Origin: Thermopetrobacter sp. | Lineage (GTDB): Bacteria > Pseudomonadota > Alphaproteobacteria > Rhizobiales > Aestuariivirgaceae | Reading direction: 5' to 3' | Length of the DNA stretch: 10,294 nucleotides | NCBI GenBank assembly: GCA_011374735.1 | Contig: DRPD01000279.1 | Span: 1-10,294 of the forward strand | Part shown: one piece after another, positions 4,776-7,951 of the stretch | Layout of the letters: each line of letters begins with the position of its first letter | Numbering within the stretch: position 1 is the first letter of the stretch | Notes under the pieces: generated by a model | Told to the model about the DNA's origin: nothing | What the model saw: only the letters and a program-made list of their open reading frames with translations | Databases searched by the model: none | Program-made: the position numbers and the translations under genes

Positions 4776-6296
4776 TCAGCCCCGCAGCCACCTTTCGAAG
4801 TCGGCCAGCGCGCGGGCGGTGAGCGCCCGGCGGCGGGCCTTGGTGCGTTCCTTGCCCTTCAGGCGTTTGCCGTTCTCGTCGTGGGTGGGCGGCTCGATGG
4901 GCGGAAACAGGCCGAAGTTGATGTTCATCGGCTGAAAGGTGCCGCCGCCGGCGATGTGCCCGCCGGTGATGTGGTGAATGAGCGCCCCGTGCGCCGTGGT
5001 TGCCGGCGGCGGGGTGAAGTCCCGCCCCTCCGGCAAGGAGGAGGCGACGTTTACCGCAGCCTCATGGGTTCGTGGCGAGGCTTGTTGGATGCCCGGGTCA
5101 AGCCCGGGCATGAGCCGTTGGCCAGCCGCCCCCTCCCCCCGCTGCGGCTCATTGCCGGGCCCAGACCCGGCAATCCTGCCGCGCACCACCTCAAAAGCCG
5201 CCGCCCGCCCGGCGATGAGGCCGCACGCGGCGCTTTCCACATAGCCCTCCACGCCGGTCATCTGCCCGGCGAAGCGCAGACGCGGATCGGCCTTCAGCCG
5301 CAATTGTTCATCCAGCAGCTCAGGCGAGTTGAGAAAGGTGTTGCGGTGCAGCCCGCCCAGCCGCGCGAAGCGGGCGTTTTCCAGCCCCGGGATCAGGCGG
5401 AAGATGCGCTTCTGCTCGCCGTAGGTCAGCTTGGTCTGAAAGCCGACCATGTTGTAAAGCGTGCCCAGCGCGTTGTCCTGCCGGAGCTGCACCACCGCAT
5501 ACGGCTTCTCGTCCGGCCGGTGCGGGTTGGTCAGCCCCACCGGCTTCATCGGCCCGTGGCGCAGGGTGTCGGGGCCGCGCGCGGCCATCACCTCGATGGG
5601 CAGGCAGCCGTCGAAATAGGGCGTGGTCTTCTCCCACTCGCGGAAGTCCACCTTGTCGGCCGCCAGCAGCTCGCGCACGAACGTCTCATATTGTTCCCGG
5701 TTCAGCGGGCAGTTGATGTAGTCCGCGCCGCCCTTGTCATAGCGCGACTGGAACCAGCACACGTCCATGTCGATGCTGTCGAAATGCACGATCGGCGCGA
5801 TGGCGTCGAAGAACGCCAGTCCCTCCGCGCCGGTCAGCGCGCGGATCGCCGCCGCCAGCGGTTCGGAGGTCAAGGGCCCGGTGGCGACGATGACGTTGGC
5901 CCACTCTTCCGGCGGCAGCCCGGCGACCTCCTCGCGCACGATGCTGATGTTCGGATGCGCTTCCAGCCGCCGCGTGACCGCCGCCGCGAAGCCCTCGCGA
6001 TCCACCGCCAGCGCCCCGCCGGCCGGCAGCTTGTGGGCGTCCGCCGCCGCCATGATGAGAGAGTCCGCCAGCCGCATCTCCGCGTGCAGCAGGCCGACGG
6101 CGTTGTTCTGCGCGTCATCGGAGCGGAACGAATTGGAGCACACCAGCTCCGCCAGCTTGTCGCCGGTGTGCGCGTCGGTGAGGCGCACGGGCCGCATTTC
6201 ATGCACGATCACGGAAACGCCCAGATTGGCCGCCTGCCACGCCGCTTCCGAACCGGCCAGCCCGCCGCCGATGATGTGGATCACGTCGTCATGCAT
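4776..6296 (-). CDS. trmFO: Methylenetetrahydrofolate-tRNA-(uracil-5-)-methyltransferase with an in-frame palindrome insertion
   Basis: A 506-residue flavoenzyme that makes 5-methyluridine at position 54 of tRNA using methylene-THF and FAD. The N-terminal Rossmann motif is [17 protein letters not shown] (about 5-21). Expected catalytic cysteines are C53 in [13 protein letters not shown] and C231 in [32 protein letters not shown] and [14 protein letters not shown] are family signatures. The ATG at 6296 gives the normal N-terminus; in-frame ATGs at 6308 and 6365 would add unusual residues. Homologues are usually about 435-480 residues. The excess is a segment at about 374-426, between VVRG and the conserved [19 protein letters not shown]. 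It is encoded by DNA containing two palindromic repeats (5089-5111 and 5151-5174) and is absent from typical TrmFO. The frame is intact, so the enzyme may still work with a surface loop. Confidence 0.93.
5087..5113. repeat. Palindromic repeat unit inside trmFO, first copy
   Basis: ATGCCCGGG (5089-5097), loop TCAAG, CCCGGGCAT (5103-5111): a perfect 9-bp stem. Read on the trmFO strand it encodes MPGLDPGI (residues 396-403), the commonly seen in-frame translation of this alphaproteobacterial repeat. Confidence 0.8.
5149..5177. repeat. Palindromic repeat unit inside trmFO, second copy
   Basis: ATTGCCGGG (5151-5159), 6-base loop, CCCGGCAAT (5166-5174). It encodes IAGSGPGN at residues 375-382 on the trmFO strand. 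It faces away from the first trmFO copy, whereas the intergenic pairs face inward. Confidence 0.8.
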
Positions 6297-6303
6297 GGCG
6301 GCA

Positions 6304-6332
6304 CACATAGGCCCTCGCGCACCGCGCGGCAA
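6304..6332 (-). promoter_or_regulatory. Possible trmFO promoter giving a leaderless transcript
   Basis: On the minus strand TTGCCG (6332-6327), 17-base spacer, TATGTG (6309-6304), then 7 bases to the ATG at 6296. Transcription would begin at or beside the start codon. No Shine-Dalgarno precedes that ATG, which fits a leaderless mRNA. Confidence 0.35.
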
Positions 6333-6411
6333 GAGCGCGCCAACCCCCTTGCGCCGCGCCGCCATTGTGGCAGGATGAAGGCGGGGAACACGGGCGGCGG
6401 CCGGCCCGATC

Positions 6412-6418
6412 AGGGAGG
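6412..6418 (+). promoter_or_regulatory. Displaced ribosome binding site of the first DUF1311 gene
   Basis: AGGGAGG directly left of the MITE-like element. Joining the flanks (6420 to 6654) puts it 6 bases from the ATG at 6658, the same motif and spacing used by the gene at 2624. In the present sequence it is 239 bases from the ATG. Confidence 0.5.
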
Positions 6419-6420
6419 CC

Positions 6421-6653
6421 AGGGTCTGGTCTCAATAAATACGTCGATGCCAGCGGCATTTTCGCAAAATAGCGCCGAGACTTTCTTTCGCAGGCAATAC
6501 CCTGAGGTATTGGCAAGAAAGAAAGGCCGGCGATATGTAGCGAAAATGTCGCCCGAAGGGGCTGGCGAAAATGCCCGTCCACATACATAAACGCTTGAAC
6601 CCTTGCTGCATTTTCGCCAGACTGGCGCGGCGGATTTATTGAGACCAGACCCT
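6421..6653. mobile_element. MITE-like non-autonomous element, 233 bp, with 20-bp terminal inverted repeats
   Basis: AGGGTCTGGTCTCAATAAAT (6421-6440) is the exact reverse complement of 6634-6653. There is no transposase or other coding content. The inside is less GC-rich than its surroundings and highly structured. A hairpin pairs CTTTCTTTC (6481-6489) with GAAAGAAAG (6517-6525) and CAATACC (6495-6501) with GGTATTG (6506-6512) around loop CTGA. CTGGCGAAAATGC (6562-6574) is the exact inverse of 6608-6620. The GCGAAAATG core occurs four times in both orientations (near 6456, 6540, 6566 and 6608). The right end abuts TA (6653-6654) and the left end CA (6420-6421), compatible with a TA target duplication as in IS630/Tc1-type elements with one mutated copy. 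The parent element cannot be named from sequence alone. Confidence 0.8.
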
Positions 6654-6657
6654 AGGC

Positions 6658-7032
6658 ATGAACAGGCGTGCGATGGCGCTGGCCCTGCTGCTGGCATGGG
6701 CCCCCGTGGCCCCGGCGCGGGCGGTGGCGGTGAAGAGCTTCAGCTGCGAAATGGCCCACACGGTGGACGAGAAGGCGGTGTGTCGCGCCCCCTGGCTCAG
6801 GCGGCTGGACGACATCATGGCCGCGCAATACGTGGCCCTGAAGGCGTATCTGCGCCGCCGCCGCGCCCTCCGGCCCGGCTGGGCGGCCGATATGGAGCGC
6901 CGCTTGCGCGATGGTCAACGGGATTTCGTCGCCGCCAGGGCGCGATGCGCGGCGCAAGAAGCCTGCATCGGCACGCTCTATGAGCAACGCATCATGGCGC
7001 TGGTGCGGATATGGAGAGAGCTGTTGCGCTGA
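6658..7032 (+). CDS. Exported DUF1311/LprI-like protein, copy 1
   Basis: A 124-residue protein. Residues 1-22 are a signal peptide (NRR then ALALLLAWAPVAPARA). The mature part has the DUF1311 pattern SFSCEMAHTVDEKAVCRAPWLRRLDD, a helix, then RDGQRDFVAARARCAAQEACIGTLYEQRI. Cysteines are C30-x11-C42 and C97-x5-C103, expected to form two disulfides. LprI of mycobacteria, which shares this domain, is a lysozyme inhibitor, but most family members have no known function. The start codon has no adjacent Shine-Dalgarno because a MITE-like element lies 4 bases upstream. An alternative ATG at 6673 would shorten the signal peptide. A relative with the same cysteine spacing lies at 7586-7951. Confidence 0.85.
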   Translation: MNRRAMALALLLAWAPVAPARAVAVKSFSCEMAHTVDEKAVCRAPWLRRLDDIMAAQYVALKAYLRRRRALRPGWAADMERRLRDGQRDFVAARARCAAQEACIGTLYEQRIMALVRIWRELLR

Positions 7033-7585: not shown

Positions 7586-7951
7586 ATGCGCATGATACGC
7601 GCGACTCTCATGCTGATGTGGCTGATGCTGGCGCTGGCCGCCACCGGGGCTCCCGCGCACGCTCAGAGCTTCGACTGCCGCAAGGCGCAAGCGGCCGACG
7701 AGCACGCCATCTGCGCCACCGCCCGCCTCGGCGCCCAGGACGAGATCATCGCCACCCTCTATCGCCGGCTGTGGCGTTATATCGAGAACCATGACGCGGC
7801 CATGGGCGTGCTGGCCCAGCTGAAGGGCGAACAGCGCGATTTCCTGCGCGACCGGGCGCGTTGCGGCGCCAATGTGGCCTGTCTCGATCACATCCAGCGC
7901 CGCCGCATCGTCGAGCTGGCCGACTGGTATCGCCGCGGTTTCGGCAGCTGA
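7586..7951 (+). CDS. Exported DUF1311/LprI-like protein, copy 2
   Basis: A 121-residue protein. Residues 1-27 are a signal peptide (RMIRATLMLMWLMLALAATG, cleavage after AHA). The mature part is QSFDCRKAQAADEHAICATA, then GEQRDFLRDRARCGANVACLDHIQRRRI. Cysteines C31-x11-C43 and C93-x5-C99 match the spacing of the gene at 6658 exactly, so the two are paralogues or close family members. The ATG at 7586 gives a clean signal peptide; ATGs at 7592 and 7538 are alternatives. The ribosome binding site is poor (AGGTGGG at 7565-7571, 14 bases away), so it may depend on translation of the upstream gene, whose stop is 50 bases before. Confidence 0.85.
   Translation: MRMIRATLMLMWLMLALAATGAPAHAQSFDCRKAQAADEHAICATARLGAQDEIIATLYRRLWRYIENHDAAMGVLAQLKGEQRDFLRDRARCGANVACLDHIQRRRIVELADWYRRGFGS

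Follow-up and report, generated by a model that had tools for sequence, protein, structure and literature searches.

A MITE between the Shine-Dalgarno sequence and the start codon of an LprI-like gene, and a predicted hairpin that may bridge them

RNA structure between a Shine-Dalgarno (SD) sequence and its start codon can bring the two together. In phage T4 the SD-AUG spacing of gene 38 is shortened in this way from 22 to 5 bases, and that of gene 25 from 27 to 11 bases, according to the extract of PMC3014915. An earlier note on the DNA studied here had named gene 38 as a precedent; the precedent is real, and gene 25 provides a second case in the same extract. The present locus resembles both in that the SD is too far from the AUG by sequence, and in that a structure between them is predicted to bring the spacing down, here from 239 to about 6 bases. 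It differs in that the T4 hairpins are small and were demonstrated by mutation or probing, going by the same extract, whereas the hairpin described here is a 231-base mobile element and is a prediction.

Short non-autonomous repeats with inverted ends, co-transcribed with their neighbours and altering the fate of the mRNA, have been described in Neisseria (Correia elements) and in enterobacteria (ERIC), and are similar to our element in these respects. Unlike bridging, the effects given for them in the available portions of PMC10969869 and PMC2229807 are promoters, IHF binding, processing by RNase III or RNase E, gene inactivation and small RNAs. Their sequences are unrelated to that of our element as far as can be seen without a direct comparison. 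In a review of MITEs in prokaryotes (PMC10969869), section 4.1 names riboswitches and terminators as further effects that can be imagined; a bridged SD is absent from the effects in that section, and the main text nowhere uses the words 'Shine', 'ribosome' or 'start codon'. Searches of an open-access collection brought up no report of a transposon between an SD and a start codon. Inserts in mRNA that are tolerated through ribosome skipping are known from T4 gene 60 and from the mitochondria of Magnusiomyces capitatus, but in the cases covered by the extract of PMC5009743 skipping occurs in elongation, within coding sequence, whereas the insert described here would be passed at initiation.

Layout of the split ribosome-binding site

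The window, by which we mean the whole stretch of DNA analysed, is a 10,294-base contig from a genome of 1.84 Mb in 410 contigs. In it, a MITE sits exactly between the SD and the start codon of an LprI-like gene (Table 1), separating the SD from the ATG at 6658-6660 by 239 bases. The earlier note had described a MITE-like element at this position, and this was confirmed by the sequence, by the presence of the element in 14 places of its own genome (several interrupted by contig ends), by the TA flanks and by the stability of the fold. The element is short, non-coding and multi-copy, with terminal inverted repeats and a target duplication.

Table 1. Features of the locus (positions in the window)
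Feature	Position	Strand	Basis or remark
trmFO, divergent neighbour	4779..6296	-	NF003739 and TIGR00137 above cut-off
SD AGGGAGG, parted from its ATG	6412..6418	+	read and recounted from sequence
Left target copy, CA (most other ends: TA)	6420..6421	n/a	134/174 ends adjoin TA, 27/174 CA
MITE, 231 bp, end type A (GGGTCTGGTCTCAATAAAT)	6422..6652	+	14 own-genome places
Left terminal inverted repeat, 19 bases	6422..6440	+	sequence and inverted-repeat search
First arm: long, internal, distal hairpin	6453..6552	+	inverted repeat I2; compensatory changes in its helices
Third arm, CTGGCGAAAATGC / GCATTTTCGCCAG	6562..6620	+	inverted repeat I5; compensatory changes
Right terminal inverted repeat, perfect reverse complement of left	6634..6652	-	sequence and inverted-repeat search
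Right target copy, TA	6653..6654	n/a	read and recounted from sequence
LprI-like gene, 124 codons, signal-peptide-like start	6658..7032	+	coding score 72.6
Alternative ATG, sixth codon of the 6658 gene	6673..6675	+	start of database protein P0001; crude start caller

On its 3' side the element is followed by GGC and then by ATG 6658. Deletion of the element and one target copy in silico gave AGGGAGG-CTAGGC-ATG, in which the spacer C-TA-GGC is 6 bases long, and the gene at 2624 likewise carries AGGGAGG (2611-2617) 6 bases ahead of its ATG; both the restored spacing and its likeness to the gene at 2624 had been claimed before and proved correct on recounting. The duplex between SD and anti-SD was calculated at -9.2 kcal/mol for GGGAGG and -11.1 kcal/mol for CAGGGAGGC. 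The inverted ends, which had been described as perfect over 20 bp, are indeed so (6421-6440 / 6634-6653), with 92% identity over 26 bases. The outermost pair, A6421/T6653, is however part of the TA target duplication, and the element proper therefore spans 6422-6652, with 19-base perfect ends. The right copy of the target is TA, but the left copy reads CA.

An empty site of the form AGGGAGGC-TA-GGCATG was not found: the 122 bases upstream of the element, compared with the 11 genus genomes, gave short, chance-like matches besides the match to themselves, and of 83 stretches in the genome contigs that matched the pattern of a three-protein alignment, none encoded a relative.

The element family, its likely mover and its insertion sites

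Matches to the element were obtained in 10 of 60 genomes, comprising 9 of the 11 genomes of the genus (its own included) and one genome of another genus with a 27-base match; the genus genomes G002 and G006 gave no whole-element match in this search. A collection of 84,980 species yielded 50 stretches with exact type-A ends, all of them in four MAGs titled Hyphomicrobiales or Alphaproteobacteria. By the 60-genome search, relatives of the element are confined almost entirely to the same genus. Two further matches were attributed to chance, namely one end-like match in a viral contig (L192), with no second end and no body in the stretch read, and an Rfam match to MIR2933 that scored 31.5 bits where the gathering score is 70.

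Elements with two paired ends span 64-251 bp (n = 57; one chance pair and two outer pairs spanning neighbours were dropped from 60). For pairing, 14 of 18 bases had to be shared between the two ends; within this list, end types therefore agree by construction. Where both ends of an own-genome copy are visible, the end type is identical at both in seven of eight copies, and the eighth, L004, is a B/A chimera. The MITE family is restricted to the genus and carries several end types on a single body of conserved structure. These types read A, GGGTCTGGTCTCAATAAA; B, GGCTCAGGACCCATAAAT; C, GGGCGTGGACTCATAAAA; and D, GGGTCAGGACTCATAAAG, and the variety is seen among element ends in G000, G001, G003-G005 and G008-G010. 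Members of only 64-67 bp with the same ends were seen at L097, L111, L156 and L172, and adjacent family elements lie head to tail with one TA in common at L156, L160, L163, L183 and L189.

The dinucleotide beside 174 distinct ends in the fetched loci was TA in 134, CA in 27, TG in 4 and another in 9. The departures from TA are lopsided, with 27 CA against 4 TG ends, and 24 of the 27 CA ends read CCAGG. Vsr repair was considered as the source of a TA-to-CA change and is not supported, with Vsr present in 1 of the 11 genus genomes and the own genome lacking it.

A TA target by itself does not decide between IS630/Tc1-mariner and other origins. An IS630/Tc1-mariner origin was set aside as unsupported, DDE_3 (PF13358) being found in 0 of 11 genus genomes and in 3 of 14 ring control genomes. 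DUF4096 (PF13340, IS4/5 family) is present in five of the 11 genus genomes, in four of them above cut-off; the profile search gave no PF13340 match in the own genome. At 3 of 13 PF13340 matches, a family end with TA lies directly 5' of the transposase gene. A type-A end precedes a DUF4096 gene broken over frames in G002 (L188/L203), and type-B ends precede DUF4096 genes at two G008 loci (L195 and L202); at L195, two frames match DUF4096 and DDE_Tnp_1. Judged by sequence, the MITE probably derives from the IS5 family, its terminal repeats and TA flank matching those beside DUF4096/DDE_Tnp_1 genes in two sister genomes, although unlike the insertion sequences of that family it lacks a transposase gene. 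The searches turned up no intact autonomous copy bearing two ends, so the parent is identified via one end only. We take the IS5-family relatives of the MITE to be the IS427-like group.

We then asked where the family inserts. Among the 53 elements with enough flank for gene context, the TA falls within the stop codon of a predicted gene in 11, and seven lie inside a predicted frame, five of these within 26 bases of its 3' end. A scored start is found at most 16 bases away from 18 of the 174 ends; a number of these starts seem to be miscalled, and most of the ends have no known flank on the far side. One family element, at L059 (G003:C11, 1173-1345), lies 150 bases past the 3' end of the closest fetched orthologue of the 6658 gene. 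Separation of an SD from its start was seen in one of the 55 elements with known flanks, the window copy only. As background, 31 of 6954 TA positions have an SD before and a scored start after them, from which about 0.5 split sites are expected among the 110 orientations of 55 elements. One split site in 55 is close to this chance expectation and gives no sign of selection at this site.

These counts bear on the suggestion in the earlier note that the element acts as an on/off translational switch. The fold could in principle change, as a switch selected at the 6658 gene would demand, but it is common to relatives at unrelated sites, and the single split site equals what chance provides. None of the 54 other examined members with known flanks lies between an SD and a start, and the window copy is an ordinary family member; nothing observed supports a true switch, which we consider very improbable. 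The element itself is a genuine and unremarkable MITE; what is unusual is its location.

Predicted fold and initiation at the 6658 gene

The RNA of 6400-6680 has a predicted folding energy of -148.5 kcal/mol (z = -9.9), and none of 200 shuffled sequences was equally stable. The predicted shape is a branched hairpin with an end stem of about 20 uninterrupted pairs, in which the pair A6421-U6653 and those inward of it have a predicted probability of at least 0.92 in three transcript ranges.

A consensus of 19 related elements (alignment A3, drawn from the 20 elements measuring 215-255 bp, with the chimera L004 omitted) contains 70 pairs, of which 26 show changes on both sides. Covariation in the outer helix is partly by construction, owing to the 14-of-18 selection on ends, whereas the internal helices are free of that selection. 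There, compensatory changes on both sides occur in 16 of 40 pairs, amounting to 73 both-side cells against 19.5 in shuffles that ignore relatedness (0 of 500 reach the observed value), and the covariation score is 0.360 against at most 0.111 when slid; a measure based on further pair types is weaker, being reached by 29 of 500 shuffles. Pairing is thus conserved. Selection acting on the folded RNA or DNA could account for this, and so could repair in which one arm serves as template for the other. The compensatory changes in the internal pairs of the relatives indicate that the fold is a trait of the family and did not evolve at the 6658 gene.

The start codon of this gene was assessed from its relatives. 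Its product matches LprI weakly and falls short of the cut-off (E 0.051), and a homologue, P0003, scores above cut-off. A protein search with the product returned three proteins, P0001, P0002 and P0003, the first of which is the window protein itself. P0002 and P0003 begin at the equivalent of ATG 6658, though a second Met is present near codon 6, and the closest fetched orthologue (G003, 44% identity) also begins there, with AGAGG 6 bases upstream. P0001 begins at 6673, a start that the crude caller picks as well, even in the joined empty site. A sequence search for relatives of the protein with a solved structure gave none.

With the element, AUG 6658 has a predicted probability of 0.50-0.94 of being unpaired, against 0.00-0.08 without it. 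In the models, bases 6413-6415 of the SD are for the most part paired whether the element is present or not (0.01-0.22 unpaired). Of the earlier proposal that the inverted ends pair and restore a 6-base spacing, the stem and a distance of about 6 bases are likewise predicted here, but most of the SD is itself engaged in pairs. For seven assumed 5' ends, opening the SD and AUG footprint was calculated to cost 13.1-15.1 kcal/mol with the element and 11.5-14.5 kcal/mol without it, the bridged site being dearer than the intact site by 0.3-2.2 kcal/mol at each 5' end; this model leaves out the sterics of a 231-base hairpin, co-transcriptional folding, proteins and RNases. The opening costs are thus similar in the two cases, which makes bridging of the kind known from T4 genes 38 and 25 a plausible hypothesis.

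An alternative is translation that does without the displaced SD, either at ATG 6673 with a weak AGG or at ATG 6658 with no SD. Opening at ATG 6673 would cost 13.3-15.7 kcal/mol with an SD duplex of only -2.5 kcal/mol, and when the duplex is counted (-9.2 kcal/mol or better for the bridged start) the model prefers bridging to a start at ATG 6673. The start of P0001 and the crude caller speak for 6673, but the homologues begin at the first Met despite having the second. The AUG 6658 region alone opens for 7.6-8.0 kcal/mol, a point in favour of this alternative; SD pairing directly before 6658 reaches only -2.7 kcal/mol, a point against it. A recognised SD was present in 13 of 27 scored genes here, against 17 of 108 in the control; with 14 of the 27 lacking one, an SD-less start at the 6658 gene is also possible. 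We hold initiation without the displaced SD, at either ATG, to be rather unlikely.

A promoter in or after the element would yield a transcript lacking the hairpin foot. Promoters have been described within MITEs elsewhere, Correia among them (PMC10969869), but a sigma-70 consensus scan of 6280-6680 gave 0 sites. The scan was equally empty upstream of the element and covers no other promoter type, so it cannot place the transcript start; we judge a promoter in or after the element improbable. A promoter 5' of the element would fall within 6297-6411. A terminator scan returned none.

More weight is due to the possibility that the insertion mainly silences or weakens the gene as a recent near-knockout, through cleavage of the end duplex by RNase III or through a hairpin that blocks initiation. 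RNase III cuts transcripts of Correia elements at their inverted repeats, according to the available portions of PMC10969869 and PMC2229807, and the long uninterrupted end stem is a likely substrate; the second LprI-like gene, at 7589-7948, could back up the 6658 gene. The frame at 6658 is intact and its coding score normal, which argues against silencing. The window copy has 15 private differences over 221 positions compared, 13 of them clustered in the loop of the third arm and 2 elsewhere; with only these two outside the loop and with perfect ends, the copy may be young, and an intact frame then proves little, but the 13 clustered differences preclude firm dating. Silencing is on balance doubtful.

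The explanation that we tentatively prefer, while giving it somewhat less than an even chance, is that a MITE inserted by chance and that its hairpin bridges the SD to AUG 6658. An IS5-family transposase would have moved the non-autonomous element in trans, recognising its ends and inserting it at a TA that happened to lie within the 6 bases from the SD to ATG 6658; the insertion itself is evident from the sequence. In the transcript, the element is predicted to fold into one closed, branched hairpin with A6421-U6653 as its lowest pair. As the whole element closes on its own ends, the SD and AUG would remain adjacent where the stem begins; the stem would leave out two bases on the SD side (6419-6420) and four on the AUG side (6654-6657), for a predicted separation of about 6 bases beside the helix. 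The 30S subunit could then bind the SD and the AUG across the hairpin foot, and the gene would still be translated, probably less well than before the insertion. Bridging is plausible on the modelling and physically reasonable, and in our view slightly likelier than cleavage or silencing. As the element family as a whole shares the fold, such tolerance would be a by-product and not an adaptation at the 6658 gene.

If bridging works, mobile elements could occupy ribosome-binding sites without killing the gene, and the split-site mechanism of T4 would extend to a natural transposon insertion. The general proposition that fold-back MITEs are translationally transparent, with the ribosome initiating across a 231-base mobile element, is one we regard as rather unlikely; if true, it would supply a selective reason for the conserved fold, aiding the persistence of such elements, and a counterpart at initiation of the bypassed inserts in coding sequence. 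With a single element, a single strong SD and a single clear start, the locus offers a simple test case.

Other features of the window were observed in passing. The LprI-like gene at 7589-7948 is a paralogue that resembles the gene beside trmFO in G003 and G004. The trmFO gene (4779-6296, minus strand) carries a 52-codon in-frame insert at 5028-5183 with palindromes such as ATGCCCGGGTCAAGCCCGGGCATG. The insert is absent from trmFO of G002-G006; gaps take up 24 positions in the alignment to G009, compared with about 55 in the others, and G009 may therefore carry something similar. It is reminiscent of the in-frame palindromic elements of Rickettsia mentioned in the available portion of PMC10969869. 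A REP-like repeat, CATTACCGGGCTTGTCCCGGTAATCCAG, lies between genes at both 113-140 and 2326-2354.
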